In this document: one piece after another, positions 48,769 to 56,033 of the stretch
Layout: each line of letters starts with the position of its first letter
Position numbering within the stretch: the first letter of the stretch is position 1
DNA from: Gammaproteobacteria bacterium
Lineage (GTDB): Bacteria; Pseudomonadota; Gammaproteobacteria; Xanthomonadales; SZUA-36
Direction: 5' to 3'
Assembly (NCBI GenBank): GCA_030431095.1
Contig: JAUIJU010000008.1
Coordinates: 1 to 64,000 of the forward strand
Length of the DNA stretch: 64,000 nt
The notes under the pieces: model-generated
What the model saw: only the letters and a program-made list of their open reading frames with translations
The model's database searches: none
Told to the model about the DNA's origin: nothing
Program-made: the position numbers and the translations under genes

Positions 48769-50508
48769 TCATTCGTAGCCGCTGTTCGAACCACCGGCGC
48801 CGAGGTTGTCGCCCGGTTCTCCGTACCAGGTCCGGAATTCCGCCACGTCGGGCATCATGCTCATTTCGTTGTTGGCCACCGGGTCGATCTCGACGTGAAT
48901 CACCGCGGGTTTGCCGGATGCCAGGGCCCGCTCCATGGCTGGCGCGATCTCCTCCACCTTCTCGACATACTCGCCGTGGGCGCCGAAACTCTCGGCGGTC
49001 CTGTCCAGTCGAACGCCCTGGCTCCAGTGACCCTCGGGCTCCCCCGTGTCCGGACCGAGAATGGCCCGGTACGAGGCCACCTCGATTCCCCAGGCATGGT
49101 CGACGCCGACAACGCAGATGATCGGCAGGTTCTTGCGCACCGCGGTTTCCAGTTCGGACACGTGAAACAGGAACGAGGAATCCCCGGTCATCAGCACGAC
49201 GCTCCGATCGTTGCCGACTCCCAGCTGGGCGCCGCAAGCATACGGCAGGCCCGGCCCGATACTGCCGTAGTTGGCGTTCCAGAACAGGTCACGCGGAAGA
49301 AATTGCAGGTAGTGGGCGAAATAAAGGCCGGTGGCCCCGCCGTCACGGATGATGACGCTGTCCCTGGGAATGACCTTCGAAACCTCCATGGCCAGCCGAC
49401 CGGGATGCACCGGGCTGGATTGCGCCGGGCAGGCATCGAACGACGCCTGGCGGGCGGCGTCCCGCGCCTTCGTCCACGTTTCGATCCGCGCGTCCGCGCT
49501 GCGCTCCAGGGATGCAGCGGCCCGGGTCAGCTGCGGCACCACGTCCCGCAGATCGCCCACCAGCGCGACATCGATCGGGCGGTTGGCGCCGATCGTCGTG
49601 GGATCCCGCTCGATGTGAATCCACTTGCGGTCGGTGTTGCCCTTACTCCAGTGCTGGCCCCTGCCGTAATGCACGGGCTCCCCGAGCTCGGTGCCGATGG
49701 CGACGACCACGTCCGCTTCACCGGCAATTTCCGCACCGGTGGCCGTGCCGTACTGAAAAGTCTGGTCCTCGATGCCCTCGGGAACGCTGCAACCCCCACT
49801 GGTCTGCAAGACCGGGCAGGCCAAGGTCTTCGCCAGCCGGGCCACCGCCTCGTGGCTGCGCGTGGCGAACGCCGCGGAGCCGACCAGCAACACGGGAAGG
49901 CTGGCATCGCGCAACAACCCGACGGCGCGCTCGACCGCCTCGGTGCCGGCCTCCTGCTTCACCAGGCGATAGGCGCTCGGGGGCGGCGCCGGCGGCAGAT
50001 CCAGTTTGGCAAACAACACGCTCATCGGGAAGTCGACATAAACCGGTCCCGGCGTGCCACTGGTCGCCTGGCGAAACGCCTCCTGGATGATTTCATCGAC
50101 TTGTTCGGGGTACTCGATGACGCCGACATACTTGCAGAACGATTCGAAAAACTGGGGCTGGCTCAGGTACTGGATCTTTCCCCGGCGAGCCCGTTGCTCA
50201 TAGATGCGGTGTCGCTGTCCGCCGATGAACACCGTCGGTGCCAGTTCCTTGGCCGAATGGATCGCCCCGGACACCAGGTTGGCGACCCCCGGCCCCTTGT
50301 TGGCCACGACCACACCCGGCTTGCCCGTCATCCGGTACAGGGCGTCGCTCATGAAGCACGCCGCTTCCTCGTGATGCGGCGCCACGATGCGCATCCCCCG
50401 TTTTTCCGCCTCGACGTACATGCCGAAAAAGCTCGGGTCGGGAATACCGAGAATGGTGTCGATGTCTTCCGCCTGGATGAGGTCGATGATGCGTTCGTGC
50501 ATGAGCAT
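48769..50508 (-). CDS. Thiamine-diphosphate-dependent enzyme (acetolactate synthase-like superfamily)
   Basis: A 579-residue three-domain ThDP enzyme. The catalytic Glu is in PHHEEAACFMSDAL; the PP domain has GDSSFLFHVSELETAV, where the usual GDG is GDS, and the terminal NN of the cofactor motif reads VD (VVGVDHAWG). A middle FAD/ADP-type domain is present (GSAAFATRSHEAVARL). It resembles 2-hydroxyacyl-CoA lyase or benzaldehyde lyase more than biosynthetic acetolactate synthase. It probably cleaves or joins a 2-keto or 2-hydroxy acid in the island's pathway. It is divergent from MFS transporter 2 and its ATG is preceded by AGGG. Confidence 0.88.
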   Translation of the reverse strand: MLMHERIIDLIQAEDIDTILGIPDPSFFGMYVEAEKRGMRIVAPHHEEAACFMSDALYRMTGKPGVVVANKGPGVANLVSGAIHSAKELAPTVFIGGQRHRIYEQRARRGKIQYLSQPQFFESFCKYVGVIEYPEQVDEIIQEAFRQATSGTPGPVYVDFPMSVLFAKLDLPPAPPPSAYRLVKQEAGTEAVERAVGLLRDASLPVLLVGSAAFATRSHEAVARLAKTLACPVLQTSGGCSVPEGIEDQTFQYGTATGAEIAGEADVVVAIGTELGEPVHYGRGQHWSKGNTDRKWIHIERDPTTIGANRPIDVALVGDLRDVVPQLTRAAASLERSADARIETWTKARDAARQASFDACPAQSSPVHPGRLAMEVSKVIPRDSVIIRDGGATGLYFAHYLQFLPRDLFWNANYGSIGPGLPYACGAQLGVGNDRSVVLMTGDSSFLFHVSELETAVRKNLPIICVVGVDHAWGIEVASYRAILGPDTGEPEGHWSQGVRLDRTAESFGAHGEYVEKVEEIAPAMERALASGKPAVIHVEIDPVANNEMSMMPDVAEFRTWYGEPGDNLGAGGSNSGYE

Positions 50509-52018: not shown

Positions 52019-52591
52019 TCAGTCGTTGTCCAGGTCCGGCTTCGCGGCATTGATGATCATGGCCCAGAACGCCCACCAGGCGACGGCCGCGGTGAACTCC
52101 ACCGTCCCCCGCTCGCCAAATTGCGCCTTGACCCGCTCCAGCAACTCATCCGGAATGTCCCCATCCACGGTCGCCAGGGCGTACTCGATGACCAGCCGTT
52201 GCTCTTCGTCAAACAGGCTGCTCGATGCCCAGTAAGGAATGGCTGCCTGCTGCTCCGCGGTGATTCCCTCCGCGATAGCGACGTCGTAGTGGCAACGAAA
52301 CGAGTACTCACAGTTGAGGGCATAGTTCAGTGACTGAACGGCGAGCTCGCGAAGATCCCTGCGTTGCGCCCACTTCAGCTCCATCACGAAAAACTTGCTC
52401 ATTTTGCCCAACTGGAGCGCCAGCTCCGGGTTGTGCGCAACGATCGCAAATCCGAGTTTCGTCTGTTTGAAGACGGGGTCGTCTTCGCCGGGACAGGCAA
52501 ACTCGAACAAGGCCTTCGCCGCGACCGCTTCCTCTTCACTCAGGTCATCGGGAACATCCGTTGGGCGTTTTACGAGGTCAATTCGGCTCAT
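52019..52591 (-). CDS. Carboxymuconolactone decarboxylase-fold protein (paralog 2)
   Basis: A 190-residue protein; ATG 52591 follows GAGAGGAG by seven bases. The active-site-like segment is NCEYSFRCH: again the second Cys of AhpD CxxC is a Ser, with Cys and His kept. It is related to the protein at 46072-46668 across its whole length, so the two are duplicated enzymes in one island, perhaps for two steps or two substrates. It lies 23 bases downstream of iclR on the same strand and is probably co-transcribed. Confidence 0.85.
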   Translation of the reverse strand: MSRIDLVKRPTDVPDDLSEEEAVAAKALFEFACPGEDDPVFKQTKLGFAIVAHNPELALQLGKMSKFFVMELKWAQRRDLRELAVQSLNYALNCEYSFRCHYDVAIAEGITAEQQAAIPYWASSSLFDEEQRLVIEYALATVDGDIPDELLERVKAQFGERGTVEFTAAVAWWAFWAMIINAAKPDLDND

Positions 52592-52614: not shown

Positions 52615-53361
52615 TCACACCACCCCCTGCTGATGAAATTCATCCACCCGGCGCTTGAGCAAGTCGCCAAGCGCCGCGGCCTGGTCCTCGATCCGCGATA
52701 TCGGTCCCCCGATGGCGATCGAGTTGCGGCGGCCATTGAAGGCGAACGGCACGGCAATTCCGGCGACGCCGGGCGCGAACATGCCCAGGTTGGCGTACCA
52801 GCCTTGCGCAGCCTGCGCTTCCAGGTCGGCTTCCACTTCCTGCGGGGACTGGAAACTCTCCAGTGCGTAATGCTGGTAGTCGATACGCGCCAGCACCGCG
52901 TTTCGCTCCGAGGGCGCGTACTGGGCCAGGATGGCCTTGCCTGCCGAGGCCACGTGAATCGGCAGCCGCTGGCCGATGGTCGCGATGAAGCGGATATCCG
53001 CGCTGGACTCCACCACGTCGATGAACACCACGCTGGCGCCCTCCGGCGCGGCCAGGCAGACCGTCTCACCCGTTTCATCCGCCAGTGCTTCGAGCAAATG
53101 GTGAACCGCTTCGGGCAGCGGCTGGGATTCGGCGAACACCTGCGCGAGGTCCATCCAGCGCGTTGTGGGGAAATAGCCGCCGCGCGGGGCGGGCTGGTAA
53201 AGGTACCCCTCATCGACCAGGGTCTGGACCGTGTTGAAGGTACTGGAGCGAGGCCAGCCCAGCTCATCCACGATCTCCCGCACCGAGAGTGGGCGGCGCC
53301 TCTGCGCGAACAGGTCCATCAACCGGAATAGATTGGCAATCTGCCTGACCTTTGTTGACAT
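52615..53361 (-). CDS. IclR family transcriptional regulator
   Basis: A 248-residue protein with an N-terminal winged helix (FRLMDLFAQRRRPLSVREIVDELGWPRSSTFNTVQTLV) and a C-terminal effector-binding domain (VCLAAPEGASVVFIDVVES; RLPIHVASAGKAILA; GVAGIAVPF). IclR proteins usually control catabolic operons in response to the substrate. It is divergent from the UGSC operon with a 105-base gap that holds a good palindrome; its own ATG codon overlaps a TGTTGACA sequence at 53353-53360. Confidence 0.93.
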   Translation of the reverse strand: MSTKVRQIANLFRLMDLFAQRRRPLSVREIVDELGWPRSSTFNTVQTLVDEGYLYQPAPRGGYFPTTRWMDLAQVFAESQPLPEAVHHLLEALADETGETVCLAAPEGASVVFIDVVESSADIRFIATIGQRLPIHVASAGKAILAQYAPSERNAVLARIDYQHYALESFQSPQEVEADLEAQAAQGWYANLGMFAPGVAGIAVPFAFNGRRNSIAIGGPISRIEDQAAALGDLLKRRVDEFHQQGVV

Positions 53362-53466: not shown

Positions 53467-54033
53467 ATGGCACTCGGCACGGTACTGGACCCCACGGCAC
53501 GGTCCACCGACGACATCAGCGCTCCCGGCCCCGACGCCGGGCCACTGGCCGGCAAGACCGTCGGCTTCCGCCTCGACGAGATCTGGCGCGCCTGGGACTG
53601 GATCGTCGAATCCTGGGGCGAGGCATTCCAACAACAGGGCGCCGCGGTGAAGGTCTGGCGCTCCCACCAGGGGCGCACGGGCGCCGCGGGCGAACGCGTG
53701 GCGGCCGAACTGGACGCGTTTCTCGATTCCATCGATATCGCGGTAGTCGGCCTGGCCAACTGCGGCTCATGCACCGGCTGGACCGTGCGCGACGCCCTGG
53801 CGGCCGCCGACAAGGGCCTGCCGACCACCGCTGTGTGCACCGAGGTGTTCCAGGAACTGGCGCAGAACCTGGCCGCCCGGGGGGGGCGCAGCGGCCTGCG
53901 CCTGCACGTACTGCCTTATCCCCTGAACGAAAAGGAACACGATGAGGTCACCGCCGTGGCCCGGTCCCACGTCGAGGGCCTGCTGCACACCATGGGTTGC
54001 ACGACCGGCGAACTGAAGGAGGCCAGCGGATGA
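53467..54033 (+). CDS. UGSC-family protein, cysteine form
   Basis: A 188-residue cytoplasmic protein of the UGSC family, first noticed as selenoproteins in marine metagenomes (Sec-Gly-Ser-Cys motif). Here the motif is Cys-Gly-Ser-Cys in VVGLANCGSCTGWT, with a TGC codon in place of TGA, so no selenocysteine is needed. A CxxC-like pair in this setting suggests thiol redox chemistry or metal binding; I know of no proven reaction. ATG 53467 follows GGAGG by eight bases. It is coupled (ATGA) to the next gene and controlled by a divergent IclR gene. Confidence 0.8.
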   Translation: MALGTVLDPTARSTDDISAPGPDAGPLAGKTVGFRLDEIWRAWDWIVESWGEAFQQQGAAVKVWRSHQGRTGAAGERVAAELDAFLDSIDIAVVGLANCGSCTGWTVRDALAAADKGLPTTAVCTEVFQELAQNLAARGGRSGLRLHVLPYPLNEKEHDEVTAVARSHVEGLLHTMGCTTGELKEASG

Positions 54034-55193
54034 TGCGCACGATCAGCCAGAACACCGTGAAGACGCAGAAATCCGTCGACCTGCGTGATTGCGGACCGGA
54101 AGGCTGCGATATCGACTGGCTGTCGAGCCGCAGGCACGAAACCGAGATCGACGACGTGATGGCCTTCACCGAGTTCGCCACCGCCCTGGGCTGGGGTGAC
54201 GGATTGCCGGTGATCCCACCGACCGAGTCCCGGGTGCGGGAATTTCTCAATCGAAACAACCGATACGCAGACGAGCAGATCTGCATCCTGCCCCCGGCCG
54301 ACGGTGAGTGCACCGTCGAAAAAATCGCCATCAACGCGGTCATGGCGGGCGCCCCGGCGGAATCCCTGCCATTGCTGATCGCCACCATGGAAGCCATCGC
54401 CGATCCGGACTTCGAGCTGTTCGGACTGAATACCACGACGGCGCCGGTGCTGCCGCTGGCGGTGGTGAACGGGCCGGTCCGTGACCTGCTGGATATCCCT
54501 TACCAGCACGGCTGCCTGGGCGGCGCCCGAACCCGCGCAACGGCCATCGGACGCGCCATTCGACTGCTGATCCGCAACGTCGGCGGCCAGGAAGCGAACG
54601 TCACGTCACAAACCACCTTCGGCTCCCCCGGGCGCATCGGCGGAATCCTGTTCGCCGAGTGGGAGGAGCGCTCGCCCTGGCCGCCGTTCGCGGAGCGCCG
54701 CGGCGTGAACGGTGACGCGGTGTCCGTTTACGGCACCATGGGCACGCAGAACATCATCGACACCACCTCGACCCGGGGGCAGGAATTCCTCGAAATGATC
54801 GGCAAGTCCCTGGGCTATCCGGGCGCCAACGGCTACTCACCGGCAATGCCGTTCGCCGAAATGATGGTGGCCATCAACCCGGTGTGGGCCGAGATCATTC
54901 ACCGCGACGTGCCGCGCCTGGAAGACGTCCAGGAGTTGATCTGGAAGCACGCGGCGATCGATGCCGACCGACTGCTGCCCAAGCACCGGGAACAGCTGGA
55001 GGCCCAGGACCGGATCGTCGGCGGCAAGGCCTACGTCACGGTGGAACCCAAGGACGTACTGATCGTGTGCTGCGGCGGTACCGGCGGACTTCACGCCACC
55101 GGCTTTCACAGCTTCGGCAGCTGCCTCACCCAGACCCGCGCCCTGGTCCCCGGACCGGACCACACCGACCCGCAGGCGCCAGCGAAGTCGTAA
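54030..55193 (+). CDS. Conserved partner of the UGSC protein, function unknown
   Basis: The 387-residue protein starts at ATG 54030 (overlap ATGA), behind AAGGAGG. No signal peptide or membrane helix is seen. Conserved-looking stretches: FATALGWGDGLPVIPPTE, INAVMAGAPAESLPL, GLNTTTAPVLPLAVVNGP, and near the C-terminus CCGGTGGLHATGFHSFGSC, which has several Cys and a second GSC. I recognise no characterised domain. Coupling to the UGSC gene suggests a two-subunit enzyme. The last codons fall inside a direct repeat (55183-55260). Confidence 0.75.
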   Translation: MMRTISQNTVKTQKSVDLRDCGPEGCDIDWLSSRRHETEIDDVMAFTEFATALGWGDGLPVIPPTESRVREFLNRNNRYADEQICILPPADGECTVEKIAINAVMAGAPAESLPLLIATMEAIADPDFELFGLNTTTAPVLPLAVVNGPVRDLLDIPYQHGCLGGARTRATAIGRAIRLLIRNVGGQEANVTSQTTFGSPGRIGGILFAEWEERSPWPPFAERRGVNGDAVSVYGTMGTQNIIDTTSTRGQEFLEMIGKSLGYPGANGYSPAMPFAEMMVAINPVWAEIIHRDVPRLEDVQELIWKHAAIDADRLLPKHREQLEAQDRIVGGKAYVTVEPKDVLIVCCGGTGGLHATGFHSFGSCLTQTRALVPGPDHTDPQAPAKS

Positions 55194-55518: not shown

Positions 55519-55661
55519 CCGAAAAAACGACCGGCACGCTTCGCCCCTGGGCACGAACCTCCTGTCTTTGCGACCGCTCGCTCCTGCGACCATCGCCTAT
55601 AGTGAACTCACACCCTTCGCGCCGGCCAGGCCGGCACCCTGAAGTGACCGAGGAGACGTCC

Positions 55662-56033
55662 ATGAATCCCAATCCCGTCGGCTGGTTCGAAATCTACGTG
55701 CAGGACATTGACCGCGCCAGAATCTTTTACGAGACCGTGCTGGAAGTGACGCTGGAGGCGATGGACTTCCCGGGCATCGAGATGTTCACCTTTCCCATGG
55801 ACCACACGGCGCCGGGCGCCGGCGGCGCCATTCTGAAGGTGCCGGACGTTCCCTCCGGCGGCGGCGGCACCATGGTGTATTTCAGTTGCGAAGATTGCGC
55901 GACGGAAGCGGCACGCGCGGATGCCAGCGGCGGCGACATCGTGCAGGCCAAGATGCAGATCGGTGAGCACGGCTTCATCTGCGTGGTGAAAGACCCGGAT
56001 GGCAACGTGTTCGGACTGCACTCGATGCAGTGA
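55662..56033 (+). CDS. VOC (glyoxalase/bleomycin-resistance fold) family protein
   Basis: The 123-residue protein starts at ATG 55662 behind GAGGAG. A single VOC domain: NPVGWFEIYVQDIDRARIFYETVL at the start and VVKDPDGNVFGLHSM at the end, with the metal-ligand type Glu in FEIYV. The substrate is unknown; such proteins may be dioxygenase-like, isomerases or binding proteins. Confidence 0.9.
   Translation: MNPNPVGWFEIYVQDIDRARIFYETVLEVTLEAMDFPGIEMFTFPMDHTAPGAGGAILKVPDVPSGGGGTMVYFSCEDCATEAARADASGGDIVQAKMQIGEHGFICVVKDPDGNVFGLHSMQ

Follow-up and report, generated by a model that had tools for sequence, protein, structure and literature searches.

We analysed a 64,000-nucleotide stretch of a gammaproteobacterial genome (contig JAUIJU010000008.1; below, the window means this whole stretch) with respect to two overlapping genes at positions 53467-55193. 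The first encodes a member of the UGSC family, which carries selenocysteine (Sec) or, as here, cysteine (Cys) at its active site; the second encodes a protein of a family without name, which we call the partner. UGSC protein and partner constitute a real, family-wide two-protein module, and the window contains a divergent, Cys-only form of it. The features of the pair are listed here; the window clade is a clade of seven sequences described below.

53467-54033, + strand: UGSC-family protein, Cys form, 188 aa; PF24696, E 8.4e-34, 117.6 bits (curated cut-off 25)
53761-53772, + strand: CGSC motif, residues 99-102, codons TGC GGC TCA TGC; its first Cys is at the Sec position
54030-54033, + strand: ATGA stop/start overlap of the UGSC gene and the partner gene, seen in the sequence
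54030-55193, + strand: partner, 387 aa, family without name; no Pfam, NCBIfam or PDB sequence match; relatives adjoin UGSC
54090-54107, + strand: partner CGPEGC, residues 21-26; CGxxGC in 7/7 rows of the window clade, none seen elsewhere
54189-54224, + strand: partner signature GWGDGLPVIPPT, residues 54-65; D57, G58 and P64 invariant in 44 rows
55068-55079, + strand: partner CCGG, residues 347-350; wide conservation limited to the two Gly
55116-55124, + strand: partner GSC, residues 363-365; Cys365 confined to the window's clade

The UGSC protein and its nearly constant partner

The pairing was followed from both sides. Starting from the partner, a UGSC domain accompanied it, as a neighbour or in a fusion, in 23 of 24 plasmid records of bacteria and haloarchaea (Pseudomonadota, Actinomycetota, Bacillota and haloarchaea), and it was found directly upstream in six of seven genome loci, the seventh (L015) being cut by the contig end. 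Nine of the 24 plasmid records contain a single-chain fusion with UGSC first (L057, L058, L059, L128, L129-L133); among these nine, five come from closely related Neorhizobium, and the reading frame of L133 is broken. In the opposite direction, each of the 30 short loci obtained through UGSC (L021-L050) proved to have a partner next to it. The 41 longer loci contain 44 partner copies, of which 43 had a UGSC gene at most 82 bp away, while the remaining copy comes second in a tandem of two partners (L020); 25 of these 41 loci were fetched via UGSC, and 11 of the 25 coincide with short loci. Among 398 Pseudomonadota genomes, PF24696 and a profile of the partner (A3) match the same five (G000, G139, G143, G277, G311), and no partner without UGSC was found in the other 393. 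The nominal chance of this agreement, own genome excluded, is about 1e-9; agreement and chance value are partly circular, because the five partners are rows of the A3 profile, and both count for less on that account.

A Haladaptatus plasmid (L125), which has no UGSC within 4 kb on each side of the partner, speaks against the pairing. It retains the order CoA ester lyase - partner - TAXI, without the UGSC and the second partner that are found in between in Halorientalis (L062); perhaps a deletion between two partner copies has occurred. The order partner-UGSC-partner is present on the haloarchaeal plasmids L062, L124, L127 and L134, and suggests two partner paralogues per UGSC.

Several arrangements are worth recording in their own right. 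Among the 23 paired plasmid records the motif reads MGTS in two and CSTC in five, instead of [U/C]GSC. The MGTS cases are the fusions of Sporomusa and Vibrio (L057, 8362-10086, and L058, 8374-10059), whose neighbours are aconitase X and DUF126. The Neorhizobium records L129-L133 hold a fused CSTC-partner chain, with a TrxB-like gene about 30 bp past the partner match; in L133, the sole annotated record among them, malonyl-CoA decarboxylase and synthase lie upstream. On plasmid pFER4 of Paracoccus ferrooxidans (L054, 1-15110), a pair with Sec-UGSC is located between selA and selB, and a TGA splits the annotated gene; it is as if the Sec machinery travels with this pair. The UGSC gene of G277 looks broken (L018, 8793-9335), with the TGA elsewhere and the N-terminal part in another frame, next to an open partner gene.

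The residues that are kept in at least 90% of 28 UGSC rows (C99-G-S-C102, D109, G117 and F128) are all found in the window protein. With the NCBI equivalog NF041046 (UGSC_fam) it reaches 69.3 bits, under the cut-off of 125, and it does not qualify as a selenoprotein, the codon at the active site being TGC and not TGA. No SelB above the cut-off was found in the window genome, which is 87% complete (best 68.4 versus 242.25 bits). In the UGSC tree, the window sequence belongs to an all-Cys clade of seven sequences (support 100/100, long branch), which contains besides the window three Gammaproteobacteria and three metagenome-assembled genomes of Sphingomonadales. In the rest of the tree Cys and Sec have been exchanged, and at least three changes are forced by well-supported branches; the tree, which has long, unsure branches (L020, L055, L056, L019, L062), was used for the window clade and for this minimum. 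In the order of G139, UGSC occurs in 75 of 76 genomes with one to six copies each, and there is a TGA within every match among those listed.

The first-pass annotation had described a Cys form of UGSC and an uncharacterised, ATGA-coupled protein of 387 residues, and both descriptions are borne out. It had also named a search for co-occurrence of the two families as a check; the plasmid records do not refute the pairing. Its statement that UGSC is known mainly from marine surveys was too narrow: according to the accessible text of the Global Ocean Sampling (GOS) survey (PMC2398784), which reports 255 UGSC selenoproteins, these were more abundant in non-marine samples, and we found UGSC on plasmids of soil bacteria and haloarchaea. 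UGSC is nevertheless among the commonest selenoproteins of ocean surveys; it is given as 8.2% of selenoprotein genes in the part of PMC9402790 that is accessible, and the accessible part of a 2026 review (PMC13188914) places it among the largely uncharacterised selenoproteins.

Predicted structures of the two proteins

An AlphaFold2 model of the UGSC protein, based on 19 sequences (mean predicted local distance difference test, pLDDT, 88.5), is a five-stranded, Rossmann-like alpha/beta domain, in which Cys99 lies after strand 91-97 and before helix 100-115. The best 50 VIA-align rows (Z 9.1-11.0) belong to widespread alpha/beta folds, among them MilB, DNPH1, quinone reductases and small GTPases; matches of a predicted model like these indicate the fold class, not the function. 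A sequence search of the PDB gave no credible match. In the accessible text of a 2008 survey a thioredoxin fold was suggested for UGSC; our model disagrees with it, UGSC being predicted to be Rossmann-like. That UGSC is a thioredoxin-fold or peroxidase-like thiol-disulfide protein which repairs or reduces the partner is in our view very improbable: the CxxC/UxxC spacing and the TrxB-like neighbours described below would fit such a role, whereas the five-stranded Rossmann-like model argues against it, and no thioredoxin-named chain occurs among the best 50 VIA-align and the best 50 Foldseek rows, which is not proof of absence.

The partner family is characterised by the signature GW(T/G)DGLPxxPPT, followed by INAVMAG, NGP, IGRAxRL and a C-terminal GG. 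Searches with 44 members gave nothing credible in Pfam (best E 0.023, in single members) or NCBIfam (best E 0.031), and the PDB held no match by sequence; the first-pass annotation had named the detection of a known enzyme domain by profile search as grounds for refutation, and none turned up. As a relative of UGSC or of the GRDB family considered below, the partner was rejected (hhalign 0.3% and 1.0%, respectively). Its cysteines were compared in the 44-row alignment. Residues 21, 26, 94, 162 and 365 are cysteines in all seven rows of the window clade, C347 in four and C348 in five of them; in the 37 other rows C162 occurs in seven, C85 in five, C21 in one, and the remaining five, among them C347, C348 and C365, in none. 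The GSC and the CCGG cluster which the first-pass annotation had pointed out near the C-terminus are present, but they are not supported as a general metal or redox site, because C347, C348 and C365 occur solely in the window's clade; a CCGG/GSC metal site was rejected as a feature of the family.

For the partner model (33 sequences, pLDDT 80.4), the top Foldseek matches were class I fumarases (E 7.6e-5, probability 0.97, template modelling (TM) score 0.18-0.31), followed by Toblerone-fold cyclic amide hydrolases (E at least 0.0075). VIA-align proposed a chorismate-mutase-like subdomain at residues 235-364 with Z up to 5.0, and fumarases with Z 3.7-4.2. These structural matches to a predicted model are weak, and we leave the fold without a name.

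The same matches are the starting point for an alternative, according to which the partner would be a hydratase, lyase or hydrolase of small di- or tricarboxylate catabolism and UGSC an accessory subunit, whose thiol stays outside the chemistry. The annotated neighbours are in agreement with this: CoA ester lyase, isocitrate lyase/phosphoenolpyruvate mutase, aconitase X, CoA-transferases, malonyl-CoA synthase/decarboxylase, and binding proteins of the tripartite tricarboxylate or tripartite ATP-independent periplasmic (TRAP) type. TctC-type binding proteins are common among them; their frequency comes without a background rate and hence carries little weight. The degenerate UGSC motif (MGTS) in the two fusions adjoining aconitase X points in the same direction. 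On the other side, the low TM-scores and Z values (at most 5.0) mean that the likeness to fumarases may be due to a shared subdomain; since no cysteine is kept across the partner family, there are no conserved Fe-S ligands; and TrxB-like neighbours together with the use of Sec in the order of G139 argue for redox chemistry. We regard this alternative as unlikely.

Thioredoxin, GrdB and a candidate reductase

A TrxB-like gene is present at 13 of 55 loci, which represent nine lineages (L019, L020, L055, L056, L061, L127, L128, L135 and the five Neorhizobium records). Two of the nine are Variovorax; the query came from Arthrobacter (L056), and the other identities are about 28-46%. As a background, 38 TrxB-like matches were counted in 13 genomes of together about 68 Mb, a density that predicts about 0.45 for loci of 0.8 Mb in total; note that these genomes are mostly of one order and that the loci are not a random sample. 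In Arthrobacter the gene order is trxB-trxA-partner-UGSC. Moreover, the partners of L017, L019, L110 and L113 have an N-terminal extension with CxxC and VP(T/A), and many partners terminate in CxxC or CxDGxC, e.g. CVDCEPPK or CADGACAV. The window clade possesses neither a thioredoxin-like extension nor cysteine tails; it has the N-terminal CGxxGC. Supply by thioredoxin is supported across the family, not at the window locus.

GrdB contains a UxxC motif in a setting similar to that of UGSC. PF07355 (GRDB) matched 2 of 200 Pseudomonadota genomes and, in the class of G035, which is presumably Alphaproteobacteria, 24 of 240; a profile was built from 31 of the matching proteins. In the GRDB-like genes (L063-L091, L051, L052) the Pfam match does not extend past the active site, ending at it or just short of it, and an in-frame TGA is found there in 22 of 31 (L081 gave no call); because of these two features, the GRDB-like genes of Pseudomonadota probably encode selenoproteins, which standard gene callers would cut short. 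Comparison of the UGSC profile (28 sequences) with the GRDB profile gave a probability of 81.4 and E 1.2e-5 over 121 columns, with Cys/Sec aligned on Cys/Sec. When 11 other families of these loci, the partner included, were compared in place of GRDB, the best value was 5.8% (E 0.0065), and reversed GRDB gave 0.3%.

Taking pairing, thioredoxin link and GRDB similarity together, we tentatively propose that UGSC and partner are the subunits of one thioredoxin-fed, GrdB-like reductase. UGSC would provide the reactive group on its Rossmann-like domain, the thiol of Cys99 in the window and the selenol of Sec in other members, and the partner would complete the active site with a second half and bind the substrate, perhaps a substituted small carboxylic acid. 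The thiolate of Cys99 (Sec in relatives), at the N-terminus of a helix, might attack the bound substrate and reductively expel a leaving group. Cys102 might then resolve the adduct, with a Cys99-Cys102 disulfide as a possible product, and thioredoxin would restore the dithiol; depending on the lineage, this could involve TrxB/TrxA encoded nearby, the thioredoxin-like extension or the cysteine tails of the partner. Of the readings considered, the reductase is the best supported but unproved. The pairing, the fusions, the cysteine and the palindrome are direct observations; the fold, the GRDB relation and the family-wide thioredoxin link have computational support; and we infer the reaction, the substrate and the order in which electrons are transferred.

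A more far-reaching version of the proposal, about which we are more doubtful, is that the pair represents a third, previously unrecognised type of GrdB/PrdB-like reductase, two-subunit and thioredoxin-fed, in bacteria and haloarchaea. Its substrates would be small carboxylic acids (di- or tricarboxylates) that lose an alpha-substituent by reduction, Sec and Cys would replace each other in the attacking subunit, and its link to thioredoxin would be provided by TrxB/TrxA, a thioredoxin-like extension, C-terminal CxxC/CxDGxC tails or, in the window clade, the N-terminal CGxxGC.

A number of observations weigh against a reductase. The TrxB-like gene of L019 lies 2.7 kb off on the opposite strand, no such gene was detected in the loci of the six close relatives of the window, and the sole TrxB-like gene of the window genome is on a different contig, with no thioredoxin gene beside the pair. 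In Pfam, the thioredoxin-like extensions are below threshold: L019 scores 20.3 versus 23.5 bits with Thioredoxin (PF00085), L113 is sub-threshold with Thioredoxin_2, L017 matches TraF alone (0.048), and no thioredoxin-type match was obtained for L110. With split profiles the similarity to GRDB is 30.2% for the window clade alone and 60.4% for the other UGSC sequences; with one GRDB sequence instead of the profile it is 54.3%; and a HMMER search with PF07355 matches not one of 28 UGSC sequences up to E 10. Because these scores are weaker and HMMER gives no link, the UGSC domain and the Sec domain of GrdB/PrdB proteins appear to be remote relatives, which does not make UGSC a member of that family. 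The comparison set itself consists of PF07355 relatives, without a GrdB or PrdB whose activity is proven. Between partner and GRDB, hhalign detects no similarity, and a GrdE/PrdA-type subunit (PF09338) was detected in none of 22 mostly GRDB-bearing genomes, a negative that is uninformative because the controls were silent as well. Finally, the MGTS fusions of Sporomusa and Vibrio beside aconitase X lack both cysteines; a thiol is therefore not required in every member, which keeps the non-redox alternative alive.

The combination of a nearly constant partner, a remote tie to glycine and proline reductases and a thioredoxin link turns an orphan into a testable two-subunit enzyme. The window form comes from a genome without detected SelB, and since it requires no Sec, expression in Escherichia coli might be feasible.

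The locus of the window clade and comparison with known systems

Around the pair, the window contains the following further features:

48769-50508, - strand: thiamine diphosphate (ThDP)-dependent enzyme, acetolactate synthase / 2-hydroxyacyl-CoA lyase-like; L010 and L011 have a relative as the next gene after the pair
52019-52591, - strand: weak CMD/AhpD-like protein; below the Pfam cut-off, linkage not kept
52615-53361, - strand: IclR-family regulator, divergent; PF01614, PF09339
53406-53423, no strand: putative IclR operator AGTCCA-N6-TGGACT; perfect 6+6 palindrome
55602-56033, + strand: VOC/glyoxalase-family protein, PF00903; closely 3' of the pair

The divergent IclR gene and the UGSC gene are separated by a gap of 105 bp, and the palindrome lies inside it. 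With at most one mismatch it is matched once in the window (average in shuffles, 0.08), and the exact sequence has a single copy in the 3.2 Mb genome. As a marker of a regulon the operator was set aside: ten more sites with one mismatch exist elsewhere in the genome, and the reversed-pattern control gave 4. The palindrome is complete and at the same place in L009 (Mangrovimicrobium) and L010 (Aestuariicella); in L011 (Pseudomaricurvus) two positions of the left half have changed, and the right half is intact. A relative of the regulator is divergent to the pair in all three loci. The divergent regulator and clear palindrome of the first-pass annotation were thereby confirmed.

Two neighbours had been brought forward in that annotation as possible clues to the role of the pair. 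The ThDP enzyme proved to be linked in part of the window's clade, though not in all of it: its relative is the next gene after the pair in two of six close relatives (L010, L011; the sequence of L012 ends too early), and in the window it lies 3 kb from the pair on the opposite strand. Its closest named relatives are of several kinds (acetolactate synthase, oxalyl-CoA decarboxylase, 2-hydroxyacyl-CoA lyase), and therefore the enzyme does not name a substrate. The claim for the CMD/AhpD-like protein could not be sustained. It scores 19.6 bits in Pfam versus a cut-off of 23, neither tblastn nor blastp gave a match beside the pair in L009-L014, and it was rejected as a member of the system.

Within about 6 kb of its pair, L011 encodes an Old Yellow-type flavin oxidoreductase, a TauD-family dioxygenase and an aldehyde dehydrogenase. 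The locus of the window clade looks like an inducible catabolic cluster, and the Cys-only, IclR-controlled operon of the window is probably induced by the substrate of a catabolic pathway. The dioxygenase, which is about 2 kb from the pair, leads to a further alternative: the pair might act on a thiol adduct or a C-S bond (desulfonation, thioether cleavage, organometal detoxification) and not an amino-acid-like reductive elimination. A reactive Sec/Cys would suit this chemistry, and a phosphosulfolactate synthase is annotated near the pair in Arthrobacter and Natrinema; yet such neighbours are sporadic among the annotated loci that were inspected, and we judge this alternative decidedly improbable, albeit less so than a thioredoxin-fold UGSC.

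Compared with the UGSC family as defined by PF24696 and NF041046, the window protein shares the whole domain, the position of the motif and the adjacency of the partner; it differs in having Cys instead of Sec, in its score below the NF041046 cut-off and in belonging to a long-branched Cys clade. The accessible text of the GOS survey (PMC2398784) mentions a conserved domain, Unknown_1, that is fused to UGSC as the partner is in some records; that account gives no adjacency, thioredoxin or GrdB link. Unknown_1 may be the same domain as the partner. Besides this fusion, the accessible UGSC literature on selenium and metalloproteins, with most subscription papers outside its scope, names no partner gene, GrdB relation or thioredoxin-reductase adjacency, and the accessible parts of PMC1794560 and of the glycine reductase literature contain nothing further on UGSC.

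The likeness to class I fumarases consists in the Foldseek match of the partner model (E 7.6e-5); the TM-score of about 0.25, the missing PDB sequence match and the lack of conserved Fe-S cysteines set the partner apart. The hosts of UGSC differ from the anaerobes in which GrdB/PrdB enzymes are known. With GrdB/PrdB (PF07355), UGSC shares profile similarity over 121 columns with UxxC and CxxC aligned, whereas it is shorter (188 aa versus 225-453 aa for GRDB proteins) and its partner is not recognisable as GrdE/PrdA. Glycine reductase, according to the accessible part of PMC13188914, likewise draws on thioredoxin, via GrdA.

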